Shown: piece after piece, positions 46,981 through 64,000 of the stretch
Layout: every line of letters begins with the position of its first letter
Position numbering within the stretch: the first letter of the stretch is position 1
NCBI GenBank assembly: GCA_017306415.1
Contig: JAFKIL010000003.1
Span: forward strand, 124,001 to 188,000
Length of the DNA stretch: 64,000 nucleotides
Reading direction: 5' to 3'
From: Microbacterium sp.
Lineage (GTDB): Bacteria > Actinomycetota > Actinomycetes > Actinomycetales > Microbacteriaceae
The notes under the pieces: model-generated
Told to the model about the DNA's origin: nothing
What the model saw: only the letters and a program-made list of their open reading frames with translations
Database searches by the model: none
Position numbers and translations under genes: made by a program

Positions 46981-47056
46981 GGTGGGACCAATCGATGGAT
47001 GCTTCGGCGCTGCGCTTTCGGCGCGGACCCTCCGGGACGACGGGTCGACCACGGCC

Positions 47057-47092: not shown

Positions 47093-47137
47093 GGGCACGC
47101 CCCCGCCCTCGCCCCATTCGCGTGTCGGGGCCCGGAG

Positions 47138-47155
47138 GCGGCCGCGAGCGGCCGC
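47138..47155 (-). terminator. Short GC hairpin after the LmeA-type gene
   Basis: GCGGCCG, loop CGAG and CGGCCGC form a perfect 7-bp stem three bases after the stop at 47158. There is no T-run. Confidence 0.5.
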
Positions 47156-47157
47156 TG

Positions 47158-47931: not shown

Positions 47932-47944
47932 GTCGGGGCCTCGG

Positions 47945-49609: not shown

Positions 49610-49686
49610 AGACCTTCAAGTCTACGGGCGCGGCCCGTGCGCTCCCTGCGAACGCACGTGCGTGGCATCGCTGCGCCCGCGCCCGG

Positions 49687-50520
49687 TCACGCGAGCTGGA
49701 CGAGCTCCAGGAAGTCGTCCCCCGCCGCGTCGAGAGGTGACGGGTCGCCCGCCGGCGGGACGTCGTCCGGGACCACCCACGCATCCACCCGCAGGTGCTC
49801 GAGCCCGACGTTGCCGCCGTGGTAGCTGAGGAAGGCGCAGTCCGCGGCATCCCGGCCCGTCGCGATGCGCACGAGCGACCGGCGGTCCGCGAGCCGCGTC
49901 GCGTCGATGACGTACCAAGCACCGTCGAGGTAGGCCTCGGCGACGGCGTGGAAATCCATCGGTCGCAGCCCCGGTGCGTAACAGGCGGCGTAGCGGGCGG
50001 GGATGTCCATCGCCCGCAGGAGCGCGATGACGACGTGCGCGTAGTCGCGGCACACGCCCTGGCCGGTCATGAGCGTCGTCACCGCGCTGTCCGTCCCGAG
50101 GCTCAGCCCCGGCGTGTAGGTGACGCTGGTCGAGACGAACTCCGACACCGCGGAGATGAGCTCGCGCGGCTCGAGACCACGGAACTGACGCCGCGCCTGC
50201 GCGAACACCTCGTCCGACTGGCAGTACCGGCTCGGACGCAGGTAGACGATCGCCTCGAGGTCGCTCGTACGCGTCTGGGCGGTGGTCGCGCCCACCGTCG
50301 CCTGGTAGCGCGCGCGGAGCAGACCGGGCTCGCCGGTGAGGCAGTGCAGGCGGCTGCCGGACTGGTCCACGATCTCGGTCGGGGTGTACTCGCGGTCGCC
50401 GCGCGTGAACGTCAGGGACTCGCTGACGAGGGACACCTGCTGCGCCGTCGCCACCTGGAAGATGAGGTCGACGGAGGACCCCAGATCGAGGTCGAGTTCG
50501 GCGGTGACGACACGGTGCAC
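49687..50520 (-). CDS. Transglutaminase-like cysteine protease family protein
   Basis: This 277-residue protein has the transglutaminase-like triad: Cys in GQGVCRDYAHVV, His in MDFHAVAEAYL and Asp in WYVIDATRLA. The N-terminal part is a beta-rich BTLCP-type domain. The family includes peptidases and amidases. The GTG at 50520 was chosen because GAGGA sits about six bases upstream; the frame could also start at GTG 50547. It is divergent from the DUF6492 gene. Confidence 0.85.
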   Translation of the reverse strand: MHRVVTAELDLDLGSSVDLIFQVATAQQVSLVSESLTFTRGDREYTPTEIVDQSGSRLHCLTGEPGLLRARYQATVGATTAQTRTSDLEAIVYLRPSRYCQSDEVFAQARRQFRGLEPRELISAVSEFVSTSVTYTPGLSLGTDSAVTTLMTGQGVCRDYAHVVIALLRAMDIPARYAACYAPGLRPMDFHAVAEAYLDGAWYVIDATRLADRRSLVRIATGRDAADCAFLSYHGGNVGLEHLRVDAWVVPDDVPPAGDPSPLDAAGDDFLELVQLA

Positions 50521-50601
50521 CGCGACATCCTCGCACAGCGCGGGCACCCCCTCGAACGGCTTGCGCCCGCGCCGTTCCCGCCGTATGCAGCCGGAGCACG
50601 C

Positions 50602-50630
50602 TTGGACGCCCCTCGGCCATCTGACACACT
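50602..50630 (+). promoter_or_regulatory. Putative promoter of the DUF6492 gene
   Basis: TTGGAC (50602-50607) and CACACT (50625-50630) are 17 bases apart, predicting a start near 50637 and a leader of about 29 bases. Confidence 0.45.
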
Positions 50631-50665
50631 GGTCGCAACACGACGATCAGGCTGTTGGGGGGCCC

Positions 50666-51592
50666 ATGGGGGATGCGCCGCTGACCGTCGTCGCGGTCAC
50701 GTACCGTGCGGAGGACGAGCTGCTCAGGGTGCAGGCCCGTTCGCTCGCGGCGTTCGCGCCACCCGGCCTGATCGAGCGGATCATCGTCATCGACAACGGC
50801 CTCCCGCGCCTGCACGGCCGTCGCCGGGCGGCGCTGCTGCGGGACTACGGCCACCTGGCCGACCTCGTGCGCATCATCCCCGCCGACGCGCTGGCGGCGA
50901 CCGAGGGGTCGTCGGGGTGGGTCGGACAGCAGGTCATGAAGCTGACCGTCGCGGACCACGTCGAGACACCGTGGTATGTCGTCCTCGACGCGAAGAACCA
51001 CGCCGTGCGGCCGCTCGTGCCTACCGACCTCATCGGTCCGGATGGCCGGGCCCGCGGCGGCTTCCACGACTACGCCGCGCACCCGCTCCGGGATCGGCTG
51101 GCGGTGACGCTGCGCTACCTGGGCCTCGACGAGTCCGCCGCGACGCACTTCCCTCCCACGTCCACGCCCTTCGTCCTGCACACCCAGACCGTCCGCGACC
51201 TGACCGGGTCGTTCGACGGCGCGTTCGCGGAGGAGTTCATCCGGGCGGGTCTGTCCGAGTTCTTCCTCTACTCGGGGTGGATCCTCCGCCGCGACGGCGA
51301 CTGGGACCGTGTCTACGACGGCGTCGCGATCCAGTGCCCGACGCTGTGGGGCGGTGCGGCGTCCACCGCGGGCATCACCGCCGCGCTGGACGAGCTGGAG
51401 GCGAAGGATGCGCCGTTCTTCGGCGTTCACCGCCGCGCGCTCGGACGGCTGAGCGCGAGCGACTTCGCCCTGATCGCGGCGTTCTGGGTCGAGAAGGGAC
51501 TGATGCGCTCGCTCGCCGAGGCGCGACGACTGCGCCGTCGCTTCCGCCGCGATCTCGCACTGTCGCTGCTGCGCACACGACTGCGCTCCTGA
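50666..51592 (+). CDS. DUF6492 family protein
   Basis: This 308-residue protein begins with glycosyltransferase-like LTVVAVTYRAEDELLRVQARSLAAF. It carries GSSGWVGQQVMKLTVAD and ETPWYVVLDAKNHAVRPL, segments I associate with DUF6492, a family of unknown function with a nucleotide-sugar-transferase-like fold. Sugar transfer is an inference only. The ATG has a GGGGGG ribosome-binding tract four bases upstream. The upstream extension of the frame is antisense to the transglutaminase gene. Confidence 0.78.
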   Translation: MGDAPLTVVAVTYRAEDELLRVQARSLAAFAPPGLIERIIVIDNGLPRLHGRRRAALLRDYGHLADLVRIIPADALAATEGSSGWVGQQVMKLTVADHVETPWYVVLDAKNHAVRPLVPTDLIGPDGRARGGFHDYAAHPLRDRLAVTLRYLGLDESAATHFPPTSTPFVLHTQTVRDLTGSFDGAFAEEFIRAGLSEFFLYSGWILRRDGDWDRVYDGVAIQCPTLWGGAASTAGITAALDELEAKDAPFFGVHRRALGRLSASDFALIAAFWVEKGLMRSLAEARRLRRRFRRDLALSLLRTRLRS

Positions 51593-51666
51593 CCGCGTCC
51601 GGCCGATCCGGCGCCCGTCACCGCAGCTGACCTCGCCTCGAGGCCGCGCACACGGACGTTGTGACT

Positions 51667-51672
51667 TATCCT
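51667..51672 (+). promoter_or_regulatory. -10 element for a probable leaderless SGNH hydrolase transcript
   Basis: TATCCT (five of six bases match TATAAT-type consensus positions loosely) lies six bases before the GTG at 51679. Confidence 0.5.
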
Positions 51673-51678
51673 CGGTCA

Positions 51679-52491
51679 GTGACCTCGCCCGACCGCCCGC
51701 GCATCCGCCACCCGTGGCGCCTGCTCGGCATCCTCGCGGTCGCCGGCGTCGCCGTGGGCGCGGTCGCGATCGGACGCCCCTGGACGTCCGCGCCGGTGGT
51801 CGCCGCCGCCGACGGTCGTGAGCCCGTCGCCGCCGCGGCGCCCGCCCCGCTCGCCCTGCCCGCGCATCCCCACGTGCTCGTCTTCGGCGACTCCTGGACG
51901 TGGGGCGCGGCGGCCGACGTGCCGACGGACGGCTACGCCTACCTGATCGGCCGCGACCTCGGCTGGAAGACCACGGTCGACGGCGTGCGCGGCAGCGGCT
52001 ACCTCAAGCACGGGTTCCTCGAGCCCGGTGTCGACGGTGGCACGTTCGGCGAGCGCATCGCCCGCCTCGACCCCGCTCTGGATCCGGACCTCGTGATCAT
52101 CGAAGGCTCGATCAACGATCGCCGCGAGCCCGAGGCGGGCTACCGCGGCGCGGTCACCCGTGCCTGGAACGCCCTCGCCGCGCTGTACCCCAAGGCATCC
52201 GTCGTCGTCATGGGGCCGGCCCCTCAGATCCTTCCGGTCGAGGCCGGGACGGCGCGCATCGATCGCGATCTCTCGGCGCTCGCCGCCCACCGCGGCTGGT
52301 GGTACGTCTCCCCCGTCGAGCAGCACTGGATCACGACCGAGAACTGGCCGTGGGTGATTGACGCGGCGGCCAACAACCACCCCTCCACACGCGGACACGA
52401 GTATCTCGCCGAGAAGCTCACCGAGGCGCTGCAGGCGATGGGCGACCGGAAGGTCATCGCCGACGCCCCACACACCGACCTGGAGCCCTGA
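51679..52491 (+). CDS. Exported SGNH/GDSL hydrolase
   Basis: This 270-residue protein has an N-terminal signal anchor (HPWRLLGILAVAGVAVGAVAIG). The SGNH blocks follow: FGDSWTWGAA (catalytic Ser), GVRGSGY, EGSINDR (Asn) and NNHPSTRGHEYLAEKL (His). It is probably an extracytoplasmic esterase or acyl-ester hydrolase. I chose the GTG at 51679 with TATCCT six bases upstream over the GTG at 51661. It converges with the cupin gene. Confidence 0.88.
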   Translation: MTSPDRPRIRHPWRLLGILAVAGVAVGAVAIGRPWTSAPVVAAADGREPVAAAAPAPLALPAHPHVLVFGDSWTWGAAADVPTDGYAYLIGRDLGWKTTVDGVRGSGYLKHGFLEPGVDGGTFGERIARLDPALDPDLVIIEGSINDRREPEAGYRGAVTRAWNALAALYPKASVVVMGPAPQILPVEAGTARIDRDLSALAAHRGWWYVSPVEQHWITTENWPWVIDAAANNHPSTRGHEYLAEKLTEALQAMGDRKVIADAPHTDLEP

Positions 52492-52499
52492 CGGCCCCG

Positions 52500-52826
52500 C
52501 TACGAACCGCCCTCGGCGAGCGTGTACTCCGCGGGCGCGAACACCACGATGACGTCGAGGTCCTCGTCGATCTCGACGAAGCGATGCTCCTCACCGGCCG
52601 GTACGAACAGGGACGCTCCGGGCACCGCGAGCGCGTCCCCGCTCTCCGCACGCAGGATGCCCCGGCCCGCGAGGACGACGTACACCTCGTCTTCTGCGTG
52701 CGGCTCCTGCGGGTCGTCAGCGCCCGCGGGGATGCGATACCTGCCGACGCTCATCGCCGGGACGCGCAGCATCTCCGCGTACGTCGCGCGATCGGATGAA
52801 GCATCCGCTGTCGAGAGTTCCTGCAT
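52500..52826 (-). CDS. Cupin-domain protein
   Basis: This 108-residue single-domain cupin has YRIPAGADDPQEPHAEDEVYVVLAG (metal-ligand region) and VPAGEEHRFVEIDEDLDVIVVF. The family includes small metal-dependent enzymes and sensors; substrate unknown. The ATG at 52826 has GGGGA upstream. The frame stays open to an ATG at 52874 (MRACRIEE), which lies inside the direct repeat, so the start is not certain. Confidence 0.8.
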   Translation of the reverse strand: MQELSTADASSDRATYAEMLRVPAMSVGRYRIPAGADDPQEPHAEDEVYVVLAGRGILRAESGDALAVPGASLFVPAGEEHRFVEIDEDLDVIVVFAPAEYTLAEGGS

Positions 52827-52850
52827 CGCCGTCCCCTCTCCCGCGCCAGC

Positions 52851-52883
52851 CTCCTCGATCCGGCAGGCGCGCATCCATTATGG
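52851..52883. repeat. Left copy of the 33-bp direct repeat bounding the 52.9-60.6 kb block
   Basis: It begins with CTCCTCGA and ends with GGCGCGCATCCATTATGG (52866-52883). The 8-bp and 18-bp ends are identical and in register with the copy at 60574-60606; only the seven-base middle varies. It lies in the 5' region of the cupin gene. Confidence 0.75.
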
Positions 52884-52886
52884 ACA

Positions 52887-52903
52887 CGGCCCTGATCGGG
52901 CCG
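52887..52903 (-). terminator. Hairpin at the end of the five-gene operon
   Basis: CGGCCC, loop TGATC and GGGCCG form a 6-bp stem 32 bases past the VWA-SGNH stop, just inside the left repeat. There is no T-run. Confidence 0.4.
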
Positions 52904-52935
52904 GGACGTCTCACCCCCGCCGTGCCGATACGGGG

Positions 52936-55344
52936 TCAGGAATGCCCCGATGCGAGCCGGGCCCGCCTCCGTTTCGAGAGCCCGACCGCAACGAGAGCGA
53001 GAGCGCCGATCAGGAACACCACTCCCATGACGAGCGCCCCCCATACCCACCAGGGGGTGGGCAAGACGACCGACACCGGGATGCGCCTTTCGATGAATTC
53101 CCCGTCCGCGGACAGGGCCGAGATGACGAGCGTGTGCCGACCGGGCTGAATGTCGGCCGGAATCCTCAATGTGCCATCGACGTGGCCGCTGTCGTCGGCG
53201 ATCAATGTGCCGAGGACGGTCGGATCCGAATGGATTGTCGTTGTCACGGGCGTTCCTGGGGCGAATCCCGAGCCCGTCGGTGCGAGGATGCCGCCTTGGG
53301 GGACGGTGAGCCCCCCGAGTTGCTTGTTGATGTCGTACGGAGTGGGCCACTCGATGTCCACCGGCACGGAAGCCACGCTGTGAGCTCGGATGACATCGTC
53401 CGTGACGAGCGGCCCCGGCTTCGTCCACACCTCCACTGTGTGCGACCACCGGATGATCGCGTCGGTCTCCGCGATGTAGCCGGACGCCGTCGGATGGAAT
53501 GACTCGCTGGCCACGGCGGGGCCGTTGGTGAGCAGGCCATTCGCGTATCGGTCCTGCTCGCTCGCGCACACGGTGTTGTCAGGACGGAACGCGTCCTCTA
53601 CATCGGACGCATAGAAGACGCTGTAGCCGAGTCTCTGCGCGCGCGCGACACTCTCCGCGACGGACTGGTTCAGCTCCGCGACGAGCTGGTCGGCGAATGC
53701 CGTCTCCTCGGGAGTGAACCAGGGAGCGCACCCGCCACGAGCAGGGACGGGAGTCAGCTTCGGGTACGGAAGGACGATGAGCGGAACGAACGCGTTGTCG
53801 CGCTCTGCGCGCAGTTCGGAAGTGTTCATCGCCGACCACGCCTGCACGTAGGTCCGCCAGAGGCTCCCACCCAGGGACTCGGCCTCCGTGATCTTCCTCT
53901 CCTTGAACTTCGCATCTCCACACGTTTCCGATAGAACGCATGCGGTGACGACCTCTTTGAAGCCGATGTCGTTGCCTCCGAACGTCATCACGCCGGCGCC
54001 AGGGACGTACCGGAGGCTGTTGAGTTCCGCGATCTGAGAAAGCGTCGTTGCCCCGTAGGGTTCCGTGAGGGCTTGGGATTCCGCTCCGGAACACGCGACT
54101 ACCCGCAGCATCCGCGGCGCGAAGACTCGGCCGAGGTAGGTTTTCTCGCTGCGGTGGCAGCTGTACGGAACCTGGCGGATGTTTGCGAAATAGTCGCCGG
54201 CACCCTCGCCGGACGAGAACGAGTCGCCGAAGACGATGAGCGGATGCTGGTCGTCGACACCGGCGAACAGCTCCCCCAGTTCGTCCTTCGAGTACGTCGG
54301 TTCCGCCGGGGTGTACGTGCCTCCCGATGTCACACGGACGGCGTTCGTAGCCCACGCACTTACCGTGAAGAGCGTCTTCTCGGGGTCACCGCGCGGGCCG
54401 GTACCCACGGTCCAGGACCGTTCGATCGTGGCGCCGGCGGGAATGTTCCCGATCCGGATCATCGGCGGGATCGCCACACGGCGCGCCTGTGGCGCATCCG
54501 CGTCTGCGAGTGTCAACGCGACGCGGACGTCCTTGGCATCCTCTCCGCCGCTGTGTCTGACAACGGCGGTGATCTTCGTCGAACCGCCCGGCATGGGCTG
54601 CGGGTCGTAGCGCACGGTGAGCTCGAGCTTCGCGCGGACGAGGGAGTCCAGGCGATCTGCGAGTTCGCCGCTGTCGCTGGCATCGAGGTAGACGCTGCCG
54701 GTAGCTTCAGCGACGCATGCGAGCTCTTTCGAGCCGGCGGCGGAGGTACGGAATCCGATCGTCGGCACCGTGACGTCGAAGCCTCGGCTTACAAGTTGCT
54801 TGGCGACATCGCAGGGTGGCGTGCCGCACGTGCTCTCGCCGTCGGAGACGAGGACGATGGTCGCGGCCGTGTAGCCGCGGGCGGTGAGATCGTCGGCGAG
54901 CGCGCGAAGCGCCTCGCCGGTCGGGGTGCTTCCGCCCGCCGTGATCCCCTCGACACTCGCGAGCACGTCGTCGGCGCTGTTGTTGCCGAAGGCGTTTGTC
55001 AGCGGCGCCGGTGGGCGGATGTACGTTCCGCCGTCGCATCCTCCGCGTGCCGGATAGGTGCGCAGCGCGAAGACCGTCGTCGGGCTGAGGTTTCGGACGA
55101 TGTCACGGACAGCGTTCTTCGCACCACGCAGCTTGAGAGTGCCCGCCCCGTCGTCGTCGTTCATGGAGCCGGACGTGTCCAGAAGCACCGCGATGGGTGC
55201 CACGCCGTCCGACGAGACCTGAGGAGCCGCCGCCGGCGTCGGTGCTGGATCCGCCGACGCGGGCGGGGCGGTAGCCGCGAGGGGTGCGACGAGAAGTGAT
55301 GCCGAGAGCATCGCCGCGAGCCCCGCACCGATGACCCGCGTCAC
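52936..55344 (-). CDS. Exported VWA-SGNH hydrolase fusion with C-terminal membrane anchor
   Basis: This 802-residue protein has a Sec signal peptide (cleavage likely after ASA, residue 31). A von Willebrand A domain follows with the MIDAS motif DTSGS (residues 56-60), GGSTPTGEAL and LVSDGES. A beta-rich spacer fills roughly 235-340. An SGNH esterase domain comes next, with GDSFSSGEGAGDYF near 373, GGNDIGF near 456 and ESFHPTASGY near 616; its CHRS and VACSGA cysteines resemble secreted actinobacterial SGNH esterases. A C-terminal Ig-like segment precedes one helix (about 765-790) and a KRRRAR tail. The architecture suggests a wall-facing esterase with a metal-dependent adhesion module. The GTG start overlaps the preceding gene (GTGA). 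The function is unknown. Confidence 0.88.
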   Translation of the reverse strand: MTRVIGAGLAAMLSASLLVAPLAATAPPASADPAPTPAAAPQVSSDGVAPIAVLLDTSGSMNDDDGAGTLKLRGAKNAVRDIVRNLSPTTVFALRTYPARGGCDGGTYIRPPAPLTNAFGNNSADDVLASVEGITAGGSTPTGEALRALADDLTARGYTAATIVLVSDGESTCGTPPCDVAKQLVSRGFDVTVPTIGFRTSAAGSKELACVAEATGSVYLDASDSGELADRLDSLVRAKLELTVRYDPQPMPGGSTKITAVVRHSGGEDAKDVRVALTLADADAPQARRVAIPPMIRIGNIPAGATIERSWTVGTGPRGDPEKTLFTVSAWATNAVRVTSGGTYTPAEPTYSKDELGELFAGVDDQHPLIVFGDSFSSGEGAGDYFANIRQVPYSCHRSEKTYLGRVFAPRMLRVVACSGAESQALTEPYGATTLSQIAELNSLRYVPGAGVMTFGGNDIGFKEVVTACVLSETCGDAKFKERKITEAESLGGSLWRTYVQAWSAMNTSELRAERDNAFVPLIVLPYPKLTPVPARGGCAPWFTPEETAFADQLVAELNQSVAESVARAQRLGYSVFYASDVEDAFRPDNTVCASEQDRYANGLLTNGPAVASESFHPTASGYIAETDAIIRWSHTVEVWTKPGPLVTDDVIRAHSVASVPVDIEWPTPYDINKQLGGLTVPQGGILAPTGSGFAPGTPVTTTIHSDPTVLGTLIADDSGHVDGTLRIPADIQPGRHTLVISALSADGEFIERRIPVSVVLPTPWWVWGALVMGVVFLIGALALVAVGLSKRRRARLASGHS

Positions 55345-56342
55345 CGCTCGAGCTCGGCTATCGCCGTGTCCGACCCGGCGACCGACGCGCCGGCCAGAAG
55401 GACTTCGACCTCGGCCGGAGAGGTCACGCGGACACCGAGTTGGATGGTCCCGCTCACGGGGACGGAGACGTCGACCGGCGAGCCGAAGGCGACCCGCGCG
55501 GTCTTCACGACCACCCCGTCCGCGAGGATCTCGACCGTCGCCGACGCGCCCGGCGTGGCATCATCGTCGATCCCCGCGGTGGCGGTGAACAGGTCCGCCT
55601 TCGCGCCCAACGACCAGGTGGTCATCGAAGCCGCCGGCTCGGCGTCGCACTCGACGGCCGAGGGATAGTCCGTTCCGCGGAGAGTGACCTGACCGGTGGT
55701 GCGGCATTCGCCGCTGAGTCGTCGCAGGTCTCCGAGCGCGAGGGCAGAGCCGGTCGTGGCGAGCGTGACCGTCGCCGTGTCGCCGAGGGGCTTGCCGACG
55801 CCAGGCGATGTGCTGAGCACGGTACCCGGTGCTGCCGTCGCGCTGTATTGGAAGACGACGGTCGCTCCGACGCCCAGATCCGAGAGCGTTGACAGAGCCT
55901 TCCGGCGATCCAGCCCGGTGAGCGCGGGCATGGTCGTCGGGACGGCGACACCTATCCAGATCTTGGCGGGCGACGGCGTCCCGAACACAGGCGACTGCAT
56001 GACGACGGTCCCCTCCGGCAGACCGGAGGGCGCATCCTCGAAGGTGATGATGGATGCGGAGAAGCCCGAGTCCGCGAGCACCTGAGCCGCGGCGTCTCGG
56101 GTCAAGCCGCGCACGTCGGGCATCGAGGACTCGAGCGCGATGACCGGCGCGGCATCGGGCTCGTCCGTGGTGTTCTGCTTCCCCGCGACGAGTGTGTGGT
56201 TGGCCGCCCACCATCCGAGCGCGACCCCGCCCATGAGCACCGCGAGCAGGACCGCTGCCGCACCGCCTGCGATCCACCACTTCCCCCCGCCGGGCTGCCG
56301 CGGCGTGGTCGCTCCTTCCGAGGTTCCCCCGGTAGCACTCAC
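55341..56342 (-). CDS. Membrane-anchored PASTA and NPCBM-domain protein
   Basis: This 333-residue protein has a short cytoplasmic N-terminus and one membrane helix (about residues 22-46). Two PASTA domains follow: MPDVRGLTRDAAAQVLADSG from about 72, and MPALTGLDRRKALSTLSDLG from about 138. The C-terminal module has the NPCBM carbohydrate-binding pattern (FTATAGIDDDA, VEILADGVVVKT). PASTA domains bind uncrosslinked peptidoglycan or muropeptides, so this looks like a wall sensor or tether without a kinase. The GTG at 56342 has a G-rich ribosome-binding site; its stop overlaps the VWA-SGNH start. Confidence 0.82.
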   Translation of the reverse strand: MSATGGTSEGATTPRQPGGGKWWIAGGAAAVLLAVLMGGVALGWWAANHTLVAGKQNTTDEPDAAPVIALESSMPDVRGLTRDAAAQVLADSGFSASIITFEDAPSGLPEGTVVMQSPVFGTPSPAKIWIGVAVPTTMPALTGLDRRKALSTLSDLGVGATVVFQYSATAAPGTVLSTSPGVGKPLGDTATVTLATTGSALALGDLRRLSGECRTTGQVTLRGTDYPSAVECDAEPAASMTTWSLGAKADLFTATAGIDDDATPGASATVEILADGVVVKTARVAFGSPVDVSVPVSGTIQLGVRVTSPAEVEVLLAGASVAGSDTAIAELER

Positions 56343-56355
56343 GATCCACCCCCCG

Positions 56356-57159
56356 TCACGATCTGCGCAGCCAACTCTCGAGGTATTGCGCGACGCCGTC
56401 ATCATGGTGCCGGGCGGTGGTCACCGTGGCCGCCTCGAGTACCTCCGACTTGCCGTTGGCGACAGCCACCGACGTGCCGACCACGGCGAAGGCGGGGATG
56501 TCGTTGTAGTTGTCTCCGAAGAAGTAGCAGTCCTGGATGTCCACCCCGAGTTCAGACGCGGCGGCGGCGACACCCATCCCTTTGGAGCAGTCGGCATTTG
56601 CGATTTCGAGGTAGGTGTCCTTCGACCGATAGGTCACGACGCTCGGGACAGGCGCGAGGAGAGCCTCGAGCCCGTCGATCAGTTCCGGCTCCCCCATGCA
56701 CATGATCTTGTGGGGCGGGTGGACATCGACGCGCCCCGAACCCACGTAGTCCTGCGACGACAGCGAGCGGGGTCGGACTCCGGTGTTGTTGATTTCGCGA
56801 GCAGTCCACTTGTCGTCGCCCCATACATGCCAGTCTTCGCCGGCGAAGAAGCTTGCGTGCAGCTCCACCTCGGCGCAATATCGCGCGACCACGCGCGCAT
56901 CGTCCGGCGAGATCGGCACATCGTGCACAACCTGCCCGGTGCGCGAGAGGACGAGCCCGCCGTTGTACGCGATGAGCGGCTCATCGACGCCGTCGTACAT
57001 CCGCTCGAGGATCCGCATCGACTCCGGCATGCGCGATGAGCAGAGAACGAAATGATGGCCGGCGGAGCGGACGCCTCTGATGGCCCGGACAGTGCGCTCG
57101 GAAAGCGTTCGCTCCGGATTCAGCAGAGTTCCGTCGATGTCGGTGAAGAACAGCGCCAC
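56356..57159 (-). CDS. HAD-superfamily hydrolase, Cof type
   Basis: This 267-residue protein has motif I FTDIDGTLLNPE (nucleophile Asp near residue 6), motif II CSSRMPES, a lysine in KIMCMGEPEL and motif IV FFGDNYNDIPAF, with a Cof-type cap between. Such enzymes dephosphorylate small phosphometabolites such as sugar phosphates. The GTG at 57159 has GAGGAG eight bases upstream. It lies 24 bases after the pentapeptide gene and 13 bases before the PASTA gene, so it belongs to the five-gene operon. Confidence 0.9.
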   Translation of the reverse strand: MALFFTDIDGTLLNPERTLSERTVRAIRGVRSAGHHFVLCSSRMPESMRILERMYDGVDEPLIAYNGGLVLSRTGQVVHDVPISPDDARVVARYCAEVELHASFFAGEDWHVWGDDKWTAREINNTGVRPRSLSSQDYVGSGRVDVHPPHKIMCMGEPELIDGLEALLAPVPSVVTYRSKDTYLEIANADCSKGMGVAAAASELGVDIQDCYFFGDNYNDIPAFAVVGTSVAVANGKSEVLEAATVTTARHHDDGVAQYLESWLRRS

Positions 57160-57183
57160 GTCTCTATCTCCTCGTGTCTTTGC

Positions 57184-58071
57184 CTATGCAAGGCGGTCGG
57201 GGATGGCTGGAAGTCTGGTTCGTTCGTCCGTGACGGGATCGCGCAGGTCGAGCCCATCGACGCGCGCATCTCGAAGGTCCGCCCCGCGGAGGTCTGGCTC
57301 GCTGAGCATTGCGTCGCGCAGGTCGGTGGCACGCAGGTCTGCGTCGCGCAGGTTCGGTTTCACCAGGCGGGCACCGCGAAGACTCGCAGCACGCAGGTCG
57401 GCGCCCTCGAACGATGACGAGAGACCCTTCGAGTCGGAGAGATCCGCACGTTGCAGATTTGCTCGAAGGAGTTCCGCATGATCCAAGATCACGCGGGGAA
57501 GGCGCGCTTCGGCAAGATTCGCGTCGGGCACCAGGGCACCGGTCAAGTCCACCGCGGATCCGGACACGCGGGAGAGGTTCGCACCACGCCAGCGGACGTC
57601 GCGAGCGATGAGCTGGTCGATGACAGCTCCGTGAAGGTTGAGGCCCTCGCCCGCAGAGCCGGCAACGCTGGCGCGGGTCAGGTTCGACGCCCGCAGGTCC
57701 GTTCTGTCGAGGGTGGTGAAGCTGAGATCGGCCCCCATCAGGCTCCGGGAAGAGAGGAGGATGCCGGAGAAGCTCCTTCCGCTCGCGTTCACCTCGTCGA
57801 GATCCGTGGCCGCGACCAGCGACTGGACGAATGCGTTCTCCTCAGCGAGACGCCGCTCGCGCTCCTTCTCCCCGCGCGCGATGAGCCGTTCGACGTACAT
57901 CAGGGCGACGCCGATGACTGCGCCGATGCCGAGGTTGATTCCCAGGTCGGAGAACTTGTCGCCCTCCGTCGGGCCGAGCCACCACATCGTCATCCCCAAC
58001 GCGAAGATCGCGGCAATGATGAGCAGAGCCGGCAGGCTCGACCGGGTGAACGTGGAAAGCAGCCGCCTCAC
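57184..58071 (-). CDS. Membrane-anchored pentapeptide-repeat protein
   Basis: This 295-residue protein has two N-terminal membrane helices (about residues 13-33 and 42-62) and a charged linker (RGEKERERRLAEENAF). From about residue 95 to 280 it carries pentapeptide repeats of the A(D/N)LXX type (GADLSFTTLDRTDLRASNL, ADLRAASLRGARLVKPNL, ADLRDARVDGLDL), which fold as a right-handed quadrilateral beta-helix. The repeats should face the cytoplasm. The GTG start overlaps the stop of the AAA ATPase gene (GTGA), implying a stoichiometric partnership. The function is unknown. Confidence 0.88.
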   Translation of the reverse strand: MRRLLSTFTRSSLPALLIIAAIFALGMTMWWLGPTEGDKFSDLGINLGIGAVIGVALMYVERLIARGEKERERRLAEENAFVQSLVAATDLDEVNASGRSFSGILLSSRSLMGADLSFTTLDRTDLRASNLTRASVAGSAGEGLNLHGAVIDQLIARDVRWRGANLSRVSGSAVDLTGALVPDANLAEARLPRVILDHAELLRANLQRADLSDSKGLSSSFEGADLRAASLRGARLVKPNLRDADLRATDLRDAMLSEPDLRGADLRDARVDGLDLRDPVTDERTRLPAIPDRLA

Positions 58072-60425
58072 AGCGCCGCAGCGTTCTCTTCCAGCGCTCC
58101 GCGAATCACTGCTGCGCGGTCTTCTTCGCCATTCGCGTCCAGTTCGGCGGAGATGACCTCCAGGACCTCGCGCGCTTCACGCGCTTCCGCTGAGGCTGCT
58201 GAGCGAAGCCACTCGAGTGCACGTTCTCGGTCCCCCATGCGCAGAGCGATCTCACCCAGGACGATCTGCGTCTCTCGGATCCCCTGCACGTATCCGATGG
58301 ACTGATGCCCGTGGAGTGCGCGCTCAGCGGCCGCATTCGCTTCCGCGAACGAGTTCCCATCGGCCCCCGCCGTCATGAGGAACGTCGCCTTGTACTGCCA
58401 TCCGATGGCTTGCGAACGCGCGGACCCGACCTGAGCGCTCCACGCGATGACACGCTCGATGTATCGGAGCGCGTCGGCTGGTTTCCCGGCCCGTCGGAGT
58501 GCCTTCGCGTAAGGCACCAGAAACCGATGACTCGCGACACGGCGGTCGACCGCATCGATGGCCTGTCGGTACAGCGATTCGGCTGTGGCGAAGTCGCCAG
58601 AGACTCGAGAGAGCTTGGCCTTATTCCGGAGGGTGCGCGCTCTGAGCGGCCCCGGGGGCAGTTCCCGATGCATCTCGAAGGCGGCGTCGACGTGATCGAC
58701 GTACTGCCGCCGATGACGCTCCGCTTCTGCAGGAAGCAGACCAGCATGTTGCTCGTACTGTCGACCATGGAGCTCTGCGAGGTCGCAGAGGACCTCGCAG
58801 AGCGCAACGGTGTCGCCGAGGCTCTCGGCAAGGCTCCGGCTCTGCTCGTAGGCCTCGAGCGCTTGCCGTGTCTCGCCTTCGAAGAGAAGAACATCCCCCA
58901 ACAGGTCCAAAGCCACCACCCGGACGGAGGGTACGTGCGCGACGTCGGTCAGCTGAGCGAGCAGGCGTCCCGCCTCCTCCATTTCGCTCGAGGCGATGTG
59001 AGCATTCACGAGTTCGAGTTGGATGGACGCCCGCGAGTCGTCGCCCTCGAAGACGACGGCTTCAGAGGACTCCAAGGCCTTCGTGAACAGCGCTGCGGCC
59101 TCGGATGCCGCTCCCGTCGCTTGGGCGTTGCGCGCCGCCCGGAGAAGATAGGGGAAAGCTTCCACCGGTTTGGCGGCGAGGTAGAGGTGCTCCCCGATGA
59201 GCGCATCCCAATCCTCATTCGAGCTGGCACGGAGGTTGGAGATCACGTCGGCGACCTGAGCGTGCAGTCGGCGCTTCCGGAGCCCACTCAACTGGGAGTA
59301 GAGAACGTCACGAATCTTGCCGTGGGAGAACTCGAATGACTCGTCAGAGGTCTGCAATTCGCGGATGAGGTCGATATCGAGGAACTTTTCCAGATCCTGA
59401 AGCAGTTCGTCTTCGCCCGCTTCCATAAGGCCGTGCAGAACGGCGAATGCGAAGCGTCTGCCTACCACCGCCGCGAGCTCGAGCTCGCGCCGCTCCTCCA
59501 CATCAAGGAGGTTGAGCCGCGACGCGATGACTTCCTCGACGGAGTCCGGGATGTCCCACGACCCGATGTCGCCCTCGAAGAGCCACACGTCGCCGTCCTG
59601 GCGTAATGAGACGCGTCCGGATCGCGGGTCGGGAGAACAGAGCATTCGGATCAACTCGCGGGTGAAGAGGGGGTTGCCTTCCGTCTCGTCGAACAGCTTG
59701 CGCGTGACAGCGTCGGGGAGGTCGGTCCGTCCTCCGAGCAATGCTTCGAGGAGGGAACGAAAGCCGAGGCGGTCGAACCCCCGGATCTCGTGGCTTTCAT
59801 ACACGCCCTCCATCCGGCGGGCGGACGCGATGACCGGTCGCACCGGATGGGTGGCGTCAGCGACCAGGTCGGAGCGATATGCCCCGAGGATGACGACCGG
59901 TCCCTCGGCGAGCCGGGATACGAGGCAGATGAGAGCATCGGCACTCCCGGCATCGAGGTGCTCCATGTCGTCGACGAACAAGATCTTCGGCTGCGCATCG
60001 CCGTGGCGATACGCGCCCATGATCACGTTGGTGAACGTCGCGACGATGGCTTCTCGGCGGCTCGACGGGTCTGCCGAGATCGACTCGCTCACGGCGGCCA
60101 TCTCGACCTCGGAGGACGCCGCTCCGAACTGGGTAGCGACGAATTCACCCGCGGGACGGCCCTGGGTGATCTGACGCACGAGCTCCCGAACGGGAAAGTA
60201 GCTCATTCCCTCATGGAACGGTTCGCATGCCGTGCGAAACGTTTGAAATCCCATCTGCGTGGCCACCGCGATCACGGCTTCCGCCAGCGCCGACTTGCCG
60301 GCCCCACTGGCACCGTGCAGCATGACAACGGCACCCGCGGGATCTCCGACGCGTGAACCCACGCGCTCGAGGGTCCGCGTGATCTTGGCCAGCTCAGCCT
60401 CGCGCCCGTGCAGAGTCACAGTCAT
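58068..60425 (-). CDS. STAND-like AAA ATPase with helical (TPR-type) repeats
   Basis: This 785-residue protein starts with an AAA_16-type module: HGREAEL, Walker A GASGAGKS (38-45), Walker B KILFVDDMEHLD (147-158) and a GAYRSDL sensor region. A winged-helix-like section (IPDSVEEVIASRLNLLDVEERRELELAAVVG) follows near 300-350. From about 420 to the end it is alpha-helical TPR-like repeats. No LuxR, cyclase or other output domain is visible, so signal output probably passes through a partner such as the coupled pentapeptide protein. The ATG at 60425 has GGGGA upstream; the 146-codon extension of the frame crosses the repeat and a divergent gene and is rejected. Confidence 0.86.
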   Translation of the reverse strand: MTVTLHGREAELAKITRTLERVGSRVGDPAGAVVMLHGASGAGKSALAEAVIAVATQMGFQTFRTACEPFHEGMSYFPVRELVRQITQGRPAGEFVATQFGAASSEVEMAAVSESISADPSSRREAIVATFTNVIMGAYRHGDAQPKILFVDDMEHLDAGSADALICLVSRLAEGPVVILGAYRSDLVADATHPVRPVIASARRMEGVYESHEIRGFDRLGFRSLLEALLGGRTDLPDAVTRKLFDETEGNPLFTRELIRMLCSPDPRSGRVSLRQDGDVWLFEGDIGSWDIPDSVEEVIASRLNLLDVEERRELELAAVVGRRFAFAVLHGLMEAGEDELLQDLEKFLDIDLIRELQTSDESFEFSHGKIRDVLYSQLSGLRKRRLHAQVADVISNLRASSNEDWDALIGEHLYLAAKPVEAFPYLLRAARNAQATGAASEAAALFTKALESSEAVVFEGDDSRASIQLELVNAHIASSEMEEAGRLLAQLTDVAHVPSVRVVALDLLGDVLLFEGETRQALEAYEQSRSLAESLGDTVALCEVLCDLAELHGRQYEQHAGLLPAEAERHRRQYVDHVDAAFEMHRELPPGPLRARTLRNKAKLSRVSGDFATAESLYRQAIDAVDRRVASHRFLVPYAKALRRAGKPADALRYIERVIAWSAQVGSARSQAIGWQYKATFLMTAGADGNSFAEANAAAERALHGHQSIGYVQGIRETQIVLGEIALRMGDRERALEWLRSAASAEAREAREVLEVISAELDANGEEDRAAVIRGALEENAAAL

Positions 60426-60481
60426 CTGGCGTTCCCCGAATTCCCACGTTCGCGAGCGTCTCCCCGGAAGCTGGCGCGGCC

Positions 60482-60510
60482 AGTATATCGGCAGCTCCCT
60501 CGGTGCGTTC
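60482..60510 (-). promoter_or_regulatory. Putative promoter of the five-gene operon
   Basis: Minus-strand TATACT (60487-60482) is a near-consensus -10, 17 bases from GAACGC (60510-60505), a weak -35. The transcript would start near 60475, about 50 bases before the ATG. Confidence 0.5.
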
Positions 60511-60573
60511 CGCCACCACGCGCCGGCCGCATCTGCGCTCTCCTTCGGTGGTGCGCTGATCTGCCGCGGCGCC

Positions 60574-60606
60574 CTCCTCGAGTCTGGCGGCGCGCATCCA
60601 TTATGG
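60574..60606. repeat. Right copy of the 33-bp direct repeat bounding the 52.9-60.6 kb block
   Basis: CTCCTCGA at 60574-60581 and GGCGCGCATCCATTATGG at 60589-60606 match the left copy at 52851-52883 exactly and in register. It lies about 90 bases upstream of the operon's -10 and 70 bases before the nitroreductase gene. Confidence 0.75.
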
Positions 60607-60675
60607 TCGGGTCGCCCCGCTCCGCATGAGGCAGGCGAATCCCACGCGGATGCCGCCCGGTGACATGCTGAGCAC

Positions 60676-61080
60676 GTGGGTCGACTCCGGGACGCGTGGC
60701 TGACGTTCATCAAGCACACGCTCAACAAGGGCACGAGCGCGCTCGCCCGGTCGGGCCGCGGACCGTTCTCGCTCGTGATCCACGTCGGCCGGAAGTCGGG
60801 CAGGCAGTTCGAGACGCCGATCATGGTCGCATCCGCACCCGACGGGTTCGTGGCCGAGCTCACCTACGGCGAGGACGTGAACTGGTATCGCAACATCGTC
60901 GCGGCGGGCGGATGCCGGCTGCTCGTCCACGGCGTCGAGCACACCGTGATCGGCGTCGAGCCGTACCCGACCGATCTCGGCCGCCGGGCGTTCGGATTCC
61001 CCGCGCGCCTCGTGCTCCAGGTGCTGCGGCGCCGCGAGTTCCGTCTGCTGCGCACGGCGGAGGCGGCGCGCGCCGGGTGA
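60676..61080 (+). CDS. Nitroreductase/deazaflavin-dependent oxidoreductase family protein
   Basis: This 134-residue protein has the Ddn/DDOR split-barrel pattern: HVGRKSGRQFETPIMV, GFVAELTYGEDVNWYRNIVAAGG and GVEPYPTDLGRRAF. The family uses coenzyme F420 in actinobacteria, often to reduce quinones or xenobiotics. The GTG at 60676 lies six bases after CATGCT, a -10-like hexamer, which suggests a leaderless transcript. It is divergent from the five-gene operon and converges with tRNA-Arg. Confidence 0.85.
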   Translation: MGRLRDAWLTFIKHTLNKGTSALARSGRGPFSLVIHVGRKSGRQFETPIMVASAPDGFVAELTYGEDVNWYRNIVAAGGCRLLVHGVEHTVIGVEPYPTDLGRRAFGFPARLVLQVLRRREFRLLRTAEAARAG

Positions 61081-61092
61081 CGGCAGGCCCAA

Positions 61093-61123
61093 CAAAGAAA
61101 AAATCCCAGGATGACCTGGGATT
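61093..61123 (-). terminator. Rho-independent terminator of tRNA-Arg
   Basis: On the minus strand AATCCCAGG, loop TCAT and CCTGGGATT form a 9-bp stem that runs into TTTTTTCTTT. It lies eight bases past the tRNA 3' end. This is the only hairpin with a true T-run that I found here. Confidence 0.9.
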
Positions 61124-61130
61124 CATTCAG

Positions 61131-61203
61131 TGCCCCCGACAGGAATCGAACCTGCGACCTTTGGTACCGGAAACCAACGCTCTATCCCCTGAGCTACGGA
61201 GGC
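61131..61203 (-). tRNA. tRNA-Arg (anticodon CCG)
   Basis: Read on the minus strand, this 73-base gene starts GCCTCCG and ends CGGGGGC plus discriminator A; one acceptor pair is non-Watson-Crick. The D arm is GCTCAGGGGATAGAGC. The anticodon stem TTGGT/ACCAA encloses loop TTCCGGT, giving CCG, which reads the CGG arginine codon. The T arm carries GGTTCGAATCC. CCA is not encoded. Confidence 0.96.
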
Positions 61204-61240
61204 GCACCGGTCGAGATTACCATCTGCGGGGCACGACGAA

Positions 61241-61272
61241 GATCGCCCCGGGGCCGAAGCCCCGGGGCGATC
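61241..61272. terminator. Perfect 14-bp hairpin between MFS gene and tRNA-Arg
   Basis: GATCGCCCCGGGGC (61241-61254), loop CGAA and GCCCCGGGGCGATC (61259-61272) pair perfectly. It lies about 145 bases downstream of the MFS stop and 37 bases upstream of the tRNA, without a T-run. It could end MFS transcripts or lie in the tRNA leader. Confidence 0.6.
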
Positions 61273-61343
61273 ATCAGCGAGTTGCGGTCTCCGTAGCCGG
61301 AACCCTTGCGGGCCTTCGTTTCCGTTTTCTCTTCGCACGAGTG

Positions 61344-61371
61344 AATCTACTCGGCTCCCGATCGACGTCAA
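61344..61371 (-). promoter_or_regulatory. Putative tRNA-Arg promoter
   Basis: Minus-strand TTGACG (61371-61366) and TAGATT (61349-61344) are 16 bases apart. The implied transcript would include the 14-bp hairpin before the tRNA. A second TTGACGTCGA copy lies 30 bases further upstream (61401-61392). Confidence 0.5.
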
Positions 61372-61418
61372 GAGTTCACCCGCAAGTCACTTCGACGTCA
61401 ACGTGAAGGTGAATCTCA

Positions 61419-62687
61419 TCAGCGGAGCGGATGCGCGATCTCGTCCTGCGGCATCCGCGCGACGACGATCGCGAGCAGGCCCACGACGAGCGGCACGATA
61501 CCTGCGACCGCGAAGATCACGGGAATCGGCACGACCTGGGCGACCGGGCCGGCGAGCGCCATCGAGATCGGCATCAGAGCGAGGGAGACGAAGAAGTCGA
61601 GGCTGGAGACCCGACCGAGCATGTGGGTCGGGACCCGACGCTGCAGGAGCGTGCCCCAGATCACGTTGCCGTAGCTGAACCCGAACCCGCTCAGGAAGCA
61701 GCACACCGCCATGATCCAGTAGACGTGGGTGAACCCCAGCACGACGAACGGCAGCGTGCTCACGCCCCACACGACGTTCATCACGGTGAGATAGCGCCGC
61801 GGCAGTCGCATCGACGACACCACGAGCGAACCCGCGATCCCGCCGGCGCCGAAGAACGCCAGCAGGAACCCGAACCAGCGGGGGTCTTCGCCGATCCGCT
61901 CCCTTGTGATGAACGGCAGGAGCACTTCTTCCGGCCCCATCGTCACGAGCACCCAGATGGTGGCGAACAGGAGCGTCCACAGCAGCCAGGGCGTACGGAC
62001 CGTGAAGCCCACCGCCTCTCGGACGTCGTGCAGCACGCCCGCCGGACGCGGCGGCGGCTCGTGCGCGGGCGCCACCGGCTCGGGACGGAGGAAGAGCAGC
62101 AGCAGGAGTGCCGTGCCGTGGGCGATCGCGATCACTCCGGCCGCCTGCGACGGGATGAGTGCAGCGAGGAGGAGCCCGCCCACCGCGGGTCCGACCGCCT
62201 GCTGCAGTGCGGGGCGGATGGCCCCCTCCAGACCGTTGGCCGCGAGCAGGTGGGCCTCCGGCAGGATGCGGGGCAGCATCGCGCTGTATGCCGGGAAGAA
62301 GAATCCCGCGCCGGCACCCAGCACGAATCCGACGATCACCAGCTGCACGATGCCGACCGTGCCGAACCAGCCCACGACCACGACGGACGAGATGGCGAGG
62401 AGGTTGACGAGCTCGGTGAACCGCACGATGAAGCGGCGGGACACGCGATCCGCAACGATCCCGCCGGGGATCGCGCACAGGAGAAGTCCCGCGGCGTTCG
62501 CAGCCGCCACGATGGACAGCTGCACGGGTCCGCCGCCGGCGTGGATGACGGCGTACACCATCACGACGGCCCACATGCCGGCGGCCGCGATCGAGAGGGT
62601 CAGCGCCCCGAACAGCACGCGGAAGTCGCGATGACCGAGTGGCCGCACCGCCCGCCAGCGATCGGCGCGGCCGCGCTCCTCGCTCAT
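61419..62687 (-). CDS. MFS transporter (enterobactin/tetracycline-efflux-like group)
   Basis: This 422-residue protein has about twelve membrane helices. A GHRDFRVLFGALTLS N-terminus, GGIVADRVSRRFIVRF (the loop 2-3 motif) and FFFPAYSAMLPRILPEAHLLAANGL match DHA3-type exporters. The substrate is unknown. The ATG at 62687 overlaps the trmB stop (ATGA), so the two are translationally coupled. The longer frame upstream is a shadow of trmB. Confidence 0.9.
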   Translation of the reverse strand: MSEERGRADRWRAVRPLGHRDFRVLFGALTLSIAAAGMWAVVMVYAVIHAGGGPVQLSIVAAANAAGLLLCAIPGGIVADRVSRRFIVRFTELVNLLAISSVVVVGWFGTVGIVQLVIVGFVLGAGAGFFFPAYSAMLPRILPEAHLLAANGLEGAIRPALQQAVGPAVGGLLLAALIPSQAAGVIAIAHGTALLLLLFLRPEPVAPAHEPPPRPAGVLHDVREAVGFTVRTPWLLWTLLFATIWVLVTMGPEEVLLPFITRERIGEDPRWFGFLLAFFGAGGIAGSLVVSSMRLPRRYLTVMNVVWGVSTLPFVVLGFTHVYWIMAVCCFLSGFGFSYGNVIWGTLLQRRVPTHMLGRVSSLDFFVSLALMPISMALAGPVAQVVPIPVIFAVAGIVPLVVGLLAIVVARMPQDEIAHPLR

Positions 62688-63418
62688 GGCGTCGCCGGAC
62701 GATAGGCGAGGTCGCGGATCGCCCGCCCGGCGCGCTCGCCCTTGCGCTCGAACGCGGTGAGGACGCGCCCGTCGAAGCGCGGCGCCCACTCGCCGTCGAA
62801 CGCCCGCTCGAACTCCGGTGCGGCATCCAGCACGGCGCGCATCTGCTGGGCGTAGTCCTCCCAGTCGGTCGCGAGCCGCAGCATCCCGTCGGGGCGGAGC
62901 GCCCGGGCGGCCAGGCGGGCGAAGTCCGCGGTCACGAGGCGGCGCTTGGTGTGCTTCTTCTTGTGCCACGGATCGGGGAAGAAGACCCACAGCTCGGAGA
63001 CGGATGCCGAGGGCAGCATATGTTCGAGCACCTCCGGCGCGTTCGCCTCCACGAGCCGGAGATTGCGAGCGCCCGCGCGGTCGGCGTCCCGCATGGTGCG
63101 GGCGAGCCCCGCGCGGAACACCTCCACCGCGAGGAAGTCGTCGCCGGGGCGCCCGGAGGCCGCGTGCACGATGGCGTGACCCTGACCGGATCCGATCTCC
63201 ACGATGAGGGGTGCGACGCGGCCGTAGACGGCCGCCGGCTCGACCTGTGCGCCCTGCGCCACGCTCGTCGCCGCGACGCCCCGCGGCACCTCGATCAGGT
63301 AGGCCGGCGCGAGCTCGGTCCACGCGCGCTCCTGCGCCTCCGACATCCGTCCGCTGCGGCGTACGAAGGAGACGGGCCGGTCCCGGAACGTCCGGGGCTC
63401 GGAGGGCATGTCGGGCAT
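62684..63418 (-). CDS. trmB: tRNA (guanine-N7-)-methyltransferase
   Basis: This 244-residue enzyme has the SAM motif LIVEIGSGQGHAIVHAA, the catalytic/tRNA-binding ELWVFFPDPWHKKKHTKRRLV and LRLATDWEDYAQQM. It methylates G46 of tRNAs. The start is ambiguous. ATG at 63418 lies six bases after TAGCCT (a leaderless arrangement), while the ATG three codons later lies nine bases after GGAGGG. Confidence 0.96.
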   Translation of the reverse strand: MPDMPSEPRTFRDRPVSFVRRSGRMSEAQERAWTELAPAYLIEVPRGVAATSVAQGAQVEPAAVYGRVAPLIVEIGSGQGHAIVHAASGRPGDDFLAVEVFRAGLARTMRDADRAGARNLRLVEANAPEVLEHMLPSASVSELWVFFPDPWHKKKHTKRRLVTADFARLAARALRPDGMLRLATDWEDYAQQMRAVLDAAPEFERAFDGEWAPRFDGRVLTAFERKGERAGRAIRDLAYRPATP

Positions 63419-63462
63419 CCCTCCAGGCTAGGGCCCTCCCCCGACGCCCTGCGACGAGCGGA

Positions 63463-64000
63463 TCAGGCCGTGACGAAGTCGATGAGCTCCTCGACCCGGC
63501 CGAGCAGTGCCGGCTCGAGGTCGCGGTACGTGTGCACCCGACCGAGGATCCTCCGCCACGCGTGCGCGATGTCGGCCTGGGTCGCGGACGGCCAGCCGAG
63601 CGCGCGGCAGACGCCGACCTTCCACTCGATGCCGCGCGGCACTTCTGGCCACGCGGCCATGCCGAGCGCCTGCGGTGTCACGCACTGCCACACGTCGACG
63701 TACGGGTGCCCCACGATCCGGACGAACCGGCCGTGCGGTCCGCGCTCGACGGCCTGGGCGATGCGCGCCTCCTTCGATCCCGGAACGAGGTGGTCCACCA
63801 GCACGCCGTAGCGGCGTTCGGCGTCCGGCGGATCGTCGCGCAGCGTCGCATCCAGCAGGTCGACGCCCTCGAGGTACTCGACGACGACGCCCTCGGCCCG
63901 CAGGTCGTCGCCCCACACCTTCTCCACCAGTTCGGCGTCGTGCCGCCCCTCGACCAGGATGCGGCTCGGCCGCGCGACGCGGGCCCGCGCATCATCGACG
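63463..64000 (-). CDS. DUF3097 family protein (5' end outside window)
   Basis: The frame is open to the window edge, so about 178 C-terminal residues are visible. SRILVEGRHDAELVEKVWGDDLR at the visible N-side resembles a TOPRIM-like core, and VDHLVPGSKEARIAQAV, GHPYVDVWQCVTPQALG and PRGIEWKVGVCRALGW are typical of actinobacterial DUF3097. The function is unknown. It lies 44 bases upstream of trmB on the same strand. The GTG at 63927 is internal, not the start. Confidence 0.85.
   Translation of the reverse strand, partial: VDDARARVARPSRILVEGRHDAELVEKVWGDDLRAEGVVVEYLEGVDLLDATLRDDPPDAERRYGVLVDHLVPGSKEARIAQAVERGPHGRFVRIVGHPYVDVWQCVTPQALGMAAWPEVPRGIEWKVGVCRALGWPSATQADIAHAWRRILGRVHTYRDLEPALLGRVEELIDFVTA

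Follow-up and report, generated by a model that had tools for sequence, protein, structure and literature searches.

A five-gene block beside a tRNA-Arg gene in Microbacterium sp.: a candidate envelope cassette whose end repeats may be a duplicated promoter

Lineage-specific genomic islets at tRNA-adjacent hotspots form a general class. We examine here a possible member, a block of five genes bounded by a direct repeat (positions 52851-60606) and lying near a tRNA-Arg gene, in a stretch of 64,000 nucleotides of contig JAFKIL010000003.1 of Microbacterium sp., called the window in what follows. Like such islets, the block is atypical in composition, sporadic and flanked by direct repeats, and the tRNA-Arg slot is filled otherwise in some relatives; unlike them, its repeats are not the 3' end of a tRNA, no integrase was found among its five proteins, and the interval that lacks synteny is wider than the repeats. 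As a horizontally acquired islet, it fits on atypical composition and on absence from the locus in relatives; as an element flanked by attachment (att) sites, it fits in having end repeats with only two genomic copies, but a recombinase gene was not found in the block. Sequence comparisons give good support to the idea that the block was acquired, on the grounds of its composition, its rarity in the genus, and its absence from the syntenic slot in relatives. As to what it is, we give an even chance to the following account: a lineage-specific, horizontally acquired envelope cassette would occupy a variable slot between a GDSL gene and the tRNA-Arg and trmB genes, and its end repeats would be a duplicated promoter and leader left by recombination.

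By gene content, the nearest described frame is that of the MoxR-vWA conflict systems (PMC7159879, PMC8195603), and it does not fit. Kaur et al. 2020 (PMC7159879) describe ternary systems with vWA, STAND, TPR, pentapeptide-repeat and TIR parts in variable neighbourhoods, recognised by a MoxR AAA+ ATPase and a third component (VMAP, iSTAND, FtsH or propeller). The block shares with them vWA, STAND, TPR and pentapeptide-repeat parts; unlike them, its ATPase is of the AAA_16/nSTAND1 type, and its vWA protein, apparently secreted, carries a fused SGNH domain. The frame fails on this apparent secretion and on the absence of a MoxR match among the five proteins.

Genes 4 and 5 (numbered as in Table 1) can be compared with better known proteins. 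Like the PknB/Stk1-type PASTA Ser/Thr kinases (NF033483; PDB 3m9g, 3py9, 2kui), the protein of gene 4 has a single transmembrane-like segment followed by PASTA domains; unlike them, it has no kinase domain, carries an NPCBM domain, and scores 40.3 bits with NF033483, against a cut-off of 450. Like the secreted SGNH phospholipases, lipases and esterases (4hyq, 5mal and 1esc, which we take to be of Streptomyces origin), the protein of gene 5 has an SGNH domain with GDS, GGND and H blocks; unlike them, this domain is placed between an N-terminal VWA domain and a C-terminal membrane segment, and residue E614 is found where SGNH enzymes usually have D. The profile matches obtained are to these three structures and to PknB-type PASTA structures.

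The first-pass annotation of the window had described a direct repeat at the two ends of the block, in the same orientation and register. It is indeed there, and longer than described: the exact 18-mer GGCGCGCATCCATTATGG occurs twice in direct orientation, CTCCTCGA precedes each copy by 15 bp in identical register, and the 18-mer is the core of an imperfect direct repeat of 47 bp, whose copies have an ungapped identity of 81%. The similarity ends on the right directly after TATGG; of the arms of the repeat, those on one side are diverged, and those on the other show no relation. A search of the 3.76-Mb genome for further copies, as the annotation had proposed, finds only these two exact ones, the next best place having 3 mismatches; a scan of the window at up to 3 mismatches gives 2 places, for a mean of 0.05 in shuffles. 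The gapped score of the pair, which was selected because of its repeat, is 57, and the maximum among 19,866 random pairs of 140-bp segments of the window is 41. With a query of 76 bp, the partner copy is the sole match below E 0.07. An exact pair of 18-mers is not by itself rare here, since 6 exact direct-repeat pairs of at least 18 bp, 3 of them tandem, occur in the window, as do at least 60 weaker repeat families. What is unusual is the extent of 47 bp, the AT-rich core and the non-coding place.

The left copy also holds, at 52842-52871, a 10-bp inverted repeat (90%) around a GAGGAGG stretch that resembles a Shine-Dalgarno (SD) sequence. The repeat is ruled out as an RNA element: a search of Rfam gives no match apart from tRNA, and the leaders fold no better than their shuffles (z of 0.11 and -1.00).

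Read on the minus strand, both copies start with CCATAATGGATGCGCGCC and then continue as a leader, each directed toward a downstream gene: the left copy stops 10 bp before the ATG of a cupin gene (52826), and about 135 bp separate the right copy from the ATPase start (60425). At 2 mismatches, the 18-mer is found at one place each in 8 of 112 other genomes; a reversed control pattern gives 2. In five of the eight (G049, G028, G065, G012 and G062), a common motif, CCATAATGGACGCGTG, stands directly before an rpe-like frame, with CCATAATGGACGC and then GTG upstream of it. The genome under study has the same CCATAATGGACGC, then a GTG start, at an alpha/beta-hydrolase-like frame on another contig (C3, L336:2011-2700), the near-identical motif having there the form CCATAATGGACGCGTGG; both frames were labelled by eye. 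This last site is apparently a leaderless promoter that resembles the repeat core. Such an order, a -10 box and then a leaderless GTG start, is known from actinobacterial promoters.

The repeat core is promoter-like because it resembles the -10 and start regions of these other genes of the genus. According to the first-pass annotation, a promoter or regulatory motif occurring many times genome-wide would have spoken against a boundary; the core is indeed promoter-like, but it is not repeated many times. It resembles the copied start of a gene more than it does the scar of a known mobile element; a duplicated promoter and leader is the likelier account of it, and a plainer one than integration. 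Other gene-based origins were rejected. The repeat is ruled out as an ancestral promoter of the cupin gene or of the F420/nitroreductase-like gene (F420 gene, for short) on the other side of the block: it is not upstream of the cupin homologs in G051, G019 and G102, nor of the F420 homologs in G174, G412, G049, G388 and G195. It was rejected by eye as the 5' remnant of a second cupin gene, the differences between copies not being concentrated at third codon positions and the cupin homologs in G051 and G019 beginning without the repeat segment. A scan at 3 mismatches of the relatives' loci that were compared yields one place outside the genome under study, in G038.

Alternatively, the repeat might be an attachment site: the block would then be the cargo of an element, or a decayed element, put in by a site-specific recombinase, with the 18-mer as crossover core and the diverged left arms as attB/attP arms. 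Two exact direct cores of 18 bp, unique in the genome, that edge a compositional block are in line with this explanation, as are the state of the arms described above and the inverted repeat within the left copy. However, the absence of an integrase, already remarked in the annotation, holds in searches of Pfam and PHROGs, which give no integrase or transposase match among the five block proteins. The exact 18-mer is not found in viral contigs, nor, at up to 1 mismatch, in the 112 other genomes; the repeat region has only weak partial matches in plasmids and phages (best E of 0.009 and 0.4, respectively); and the core is promoter-like. We consider an attachment site unlikely. A phage or plasmid origin of the repeat is not supported by these same searches, and integration at a tRNA end is ruled out, the repeat being unrelated to the tRNA-Arg sequence.

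The composition of the block sets it apart. Its GC content is 66.4%, against 72.0% in 45000-52850 and 70.4% in 60607-64000, so that the lower GC first noticed on a few lines of sequence extends to the whole block; 7 of 563 equal-sized sliding windows, including those that overlap the block, have a GC as low or lower. The GC content at third codon positions (GC3) is 0.76-0.85 in the block genes, and 0.91-0.94 in argS, transglutaminase, GDSL, F420, trmB and the gene after trmB. The tetranucleotide profile, a comparison also suggested in the annotation, makes the block the most atypical stretch of the window: its distance is 0.244, a value reached by only 1 of 57 sliding windows (start 53001, nearly the block itself), and the highest value among the windows that do not overlap it is 0.166.

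The block is also rare. Our genus set has 366 genomes, 365 of them other than the genome under study (G000). A profile search in which the two best first-look candidates were scored per genome finds a full-length relative of the VWA-SGNH protein in one of the 365, G350, at a different locus near a tRNA-Ala gene and with 41-44% identity; 10 further genomes match the profile in the VWA part or little more. The ATPase, with up to 8 candidates scored per genome, has matches in 23 of 117 other genomes, weak and partial (25-36% identity) and none of them close. In plasmids, the block DNA matches short pentapeptide-type pieces at about 70%, and the ATPase only weakly and partially at 24-29% identity, in both cases among the matches listed. 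A phage origin of the VWA gene was discarded: no relative was confirmed in viral contigs, and phages gave one match to the VWA part. That the block is old and was lost from most relatives would agree with the presence of PASTA and VWA genes side by side in Leucobacter and Cryobacterium, two genera probably of the same family as the genome under study; the single full-length relative, at a different locus and at such low identity, and the atypical composition go against this explanation, which we find very improbable.

The gene order common to relatives is argS - transglutaminase - GDSL - slot - tRNA-Arg - trmB. We compared 72 tRNA-Arg loci, chosen from the best flanking-DNA matches and not at random. 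Eight have no match to argS, transglutaminase or GDSL within 10 kb, and 64 are anchored. The nearest anchor is GDSL in 48 of these, with the tRNA-Arg gene within 1 kb of it in 44, where there is therefore no room for the block; the other four have gaps of 3.3, 4.6, 7.6 and 8.0 kb. The 16 loci without GDSL divide into 9 with transglutaminase within 150 bp of the tRNA gene, and 7 in which 2.1-5.0 kb separate it from transglutaminase or argS. A DEAD/ResIII-type protein of about 990 amino acids (aa) fills the slot in two of the four large GDSL gaps, the two that were scanned (L234:3779-6763 and L236:12772-15738). The tRNA-Arg gene is oriented as in the window in 14 of the 64 anchored loci, and flipped with respect to the GDSL/argS cluster in 50, a local inversion or relocation of this gene. 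Just past its 3' end in the window, at 61101-61124, a 10-bp stem with a T-rich tail is a candidate terminator.

The best syntenic relative by flanking DNA is G010. Its similarity to the window breaks off within the GDSL gene, at 52465, and is found again from 61098, just beyond the F420 gene: the cupin gene, the block and the F420 gene are thus all missing in G010, where the slot holds instead an open frame of about 0.7 kb, DJ-1/PfpI-like as labelled by eye. Since this break is wider than the repeats, the insertion, or insertions, are not proven to end at the repeats. The annotation had proposed that the block was inserted as a unit by site-specific integration: acquisition is upheld by composition, rarity and absence from the slot, but insertion as a unit at the repeat is not, the break in G010 being wider.

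The same break fits an explanation in which insertion and the repeat are unrelated: a promoter and leader would be common to the cupin gene and the operon, by descent or by convergent use, and the interval from cupin to F420 would have been gained in one or several steps. The GC3 of the cupin gene, 0.853, is at the maximum of the block and below the flanks, and homologs of the two flanking genes are scattered, with good matches in 3 (cupin) and 6 (F420) of the 117 other genomes; in none of the 3 is an F420 gene within about 5 kb of the cupin gene. However, a non-coding similarity of 47 bp with an exact core of 18 bp exceeds what a -10 motif needs, and the F420 gene has a resident-like GC3 of 0.919. 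A shared leader is possible but doubtful.

Returning to the duplicated promoter, the account would run as follows. Foreign DNA would have recombined at or near the cupin promoter; the duplicated segment would comprise the -10-like CATAAT, the start site and the 5' leader, with one copy kept by the cupin gene and the other standing before the operon. The route was perhaps one crossover, over this short homology, that joined a circle to the chromosome; this would account for the divergence of the copies as well as for the lack of an integrase. If this is true, a cassette that lacks an integrase can land in a variable slot and gain a local gene start, while the promoter of its neighbour stays intact. 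As for function, the PASTA-NPCBM protein may bind wall muropeptide or glycan outside the cell, and the VWA-SGNH protein, tethered to the membrane, could be a metal-dependent binder and esterase with acylated envelope polymers or lipids as its targets; the STAND-type ATPase with TPR repeats and the membrane pentapeptide protein would form the cytoplasmic sensing and scaffold side.

Several observations weigh against this account. A homology of 47 bp is short for ordinary homologous recombination, and the window has two further distant pairs of exact 18-bp repeats (15429/18686 and 1369/45407). No single-copy empty site was found, nor any genome with the cupin and F420 genes next to each other in which to look for one. 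The repeat is not seen in the upstream regions of the 3 cupin and 5 F420 homologs, and G350, the only other carrier found in the genus of the PASTA-NPCBM and VWA-SGNH genes, shows no repeat of this kind over the 13.9 kb examined. Finally, a consensus scan finds no sigma-70-type promoter in the region (no -35/-10 pair), so that it is the -10 resemblance by itself that speaks for a promoter. Two signals that had been annotated as the operon's own fare likewise: the letters of the -10 box TATACT (60482-60487) and of the end hairpin (52887-52903) are present, but the former is not part of a promoter found by the scan and the latter is not called a terminator.

The five genes between the copies are co-directional, with spacings of -4 to +24 bp, as expected of the single minus-strand operon first annotated, and their products are, by sequence, predicted cell-surface and signalling proteins. 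The starts of the ATPase and PASTA genes are internal ones picked by eye: the open frame of gene 4 begins at 56405, and the ATPase was run against Pfam from an internal start at 60422. Its match is AAA_16/nSTAND1-like, and the sequence reads GASGAGKS, a Walker A motif, and a Walker-B-like ILFVDD. The product of gene 2 has two N-terminal transmembrane-like segments by hydropathy; gene 3 matches HAD Hydrolase_3 in Pfam and is above the cut-off of TIGR00099 in NCBIfam. Hydropathy also gives one N-terminal membrane-like segment in the PASTA-NPCBM protein, and a signal-like N-terminus and a C-terminal transmembrane-like segment in the VWA-SGNH protein. In six aligned sequences, two of them near-identical, the residues of the metal ion-dependent adhesion site of the VWA domain (D56, S58, S60, T140/T142 and D168) and the SGNH blocks (GDS 373-375, GGND 456-459 and H617) are invariant. 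An anti-phage defence system is unsupported: with PADLOC 2.0, only gene 4 matches, and partially, two PD-T4-6 models. A frame of 36 codons on the minus strand at 60422-60532, seen by eye, has an SD-like GGAG and an ATGA overlap with the ATPase start; it may be a leader peptide, or chance.

The most interesting find is that genes 4 and 5 form a conserved pair. We call PASTA-NPCBM / VWA-SGNH pair any two adjacent genes with these domains, as these two are. Searched with a single sequence, the genome contigs gave no match to the VWA protein; a scan for VWA-SGNH with an alignment and profile of six sequences gave 77 loci, of which 65 (L167-L231) have no PASTA match, most of them matching one part of the VWA-SGNH protein only. 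VWA-SGNH was found in Leucobacter, Actinomyces, Mycolicibacterium, Mycolicibacter, Mycobacterium, Pseudarthrobacter, Arthrobacter, Demequina, Cryobacterium and others, and also on Rhodococcus plasmids. Left out of the survey were those 65 loci, L113 (a short contig), L154 and L166 (matched on the SGNH side alone, without a PASTA match), and L158, L163 and L326 (copies of counted loci); near-copies within it are L143/L146, L157/L160 and L149/L150. In 23 of the 24 loci surveyed, window included, the PASTA-NPCBM gene adjoins the VWA-SGNH gene (22 by clustering, L165 by tblastn), and 4 of the pair loci are Rhodococcus plasmids. The remaining one, L327, has no PASTA gene, by tblastn too, and its match covers the VWA part only. 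Our literature searches returned no paper recognisable as describing the pair or a function for it. In Actinobacteria, it is a candidate for a part in watching over the wall or in remodelling the envelope.

The neighbours of the pair vary, as judged by a Pfam scan of chosen neighbours in 11 of the surveyed loci. Genes for TIR and propeller proteins lie beside it in 2 of the 24 loci, L143 (a Rhodococcus plasmid) and L319 (G350), which also share an unknown protein of 816/872 aa at 25% identity; in L319:3189-18110, the pair stands between TIR/propeller genes, near tRNA-Ala. These two loci have the same kind of adjacent pair but, unlike the block, surround it with TIR, beta-propeller and the 816/872-aa protein rather than with ATPase, pentapeptide and HAD genes; tblastn finds these three genes of the block near none of the other pairs. 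Histidine-kinase and LuxR-type regulators lie 2-8 kb upstream in three loci (L144, L157 and, by similarity to L157, L160), and a PP2C gene is near the pair in one, L164 (Cryobacterium).

One might conjecture a modular system of envelope surveillance in actinobacteria, so far undescribed, of which the pair would be the outward-facing half and the constant one, moved on plasmids and islets, with interchangeable cytoplasmic modules: ATPase-TPR, pentapeptide and HAD here; TIR and propeller in G350, of the same genus, and on the Rhodococcus plasmid; histidine kinase and LuxR in Mycolicibacterium, Mycobacterium and Rhodococcus; PP2C in Cryobacterium. We hold this conjecture, modules included, to be quite unlikely. 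At three loci, L149, L150 (both Demequina) and L325, the pair stands amid chromosomal genes that look ordinary by eye; it can thus stand alone, which weakens the conjecture.

Table 1. Features of the block and of its surroundings, in positions of the window.
Feature	Position	Strand	Basis or remark
Gene 1, AAA_16 (STAND-like) ATPase with TPR repeats, 785 aa	58068..60425	-	Pfam, sequence; start by eye
Gene 2, pentapeptide-repeat protein, 295 aa	57184..58071	-	Pfam, hydropathy
Gene 3, Cof-type HAD-IIB phosphatase, 267 aa	56356..57159	-	Pfam, NCBIfam
Gene 4, membrane-anchored protein with two PASTA domains and NPCBM, 333 aa	55341..56342	-	Pfam, hydropathy, alignment A2
Gene 5, VWA and SGNH/GDSL hydrolase, 802 aa	52936..55344	-	Pfam (VWA and Lipase_GDSL_2), alignment A1, hydropathy
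Left repeat copy	52837..52883	-	Exact core 52866-52883; -10-like CATAAT and 5' leader upstream of cupin ATG 52826 (putative promoter)
Right repeat copy	60560..60606	-	Exact core 60589-60606; upstream of the five-gene operon
Flanking cupin gene	52500..52826	-	Pfam; absent from the G010 slot
Flanking F420/nitroreductase-like gene	60676..61080	+	Below Pfam and NCBIfam cut-offs; absent from the G010 slot
Resident GDSL gene	51661..52491	+	Left end of conserved synteny
tRNA-Arg (CCG)	61130..61203	-	G010 homology resumes at 61098

Other repeats were seen elsewhere in the window. A 23-bp sequence occurs twice at 27676-30249, with 96% identity and 2551 bp apart, in a stretch of lower GC with weaker copies nearby, and tandem exact repeats of 19-20 bp are found at 24762-24862 and 41387-41411.

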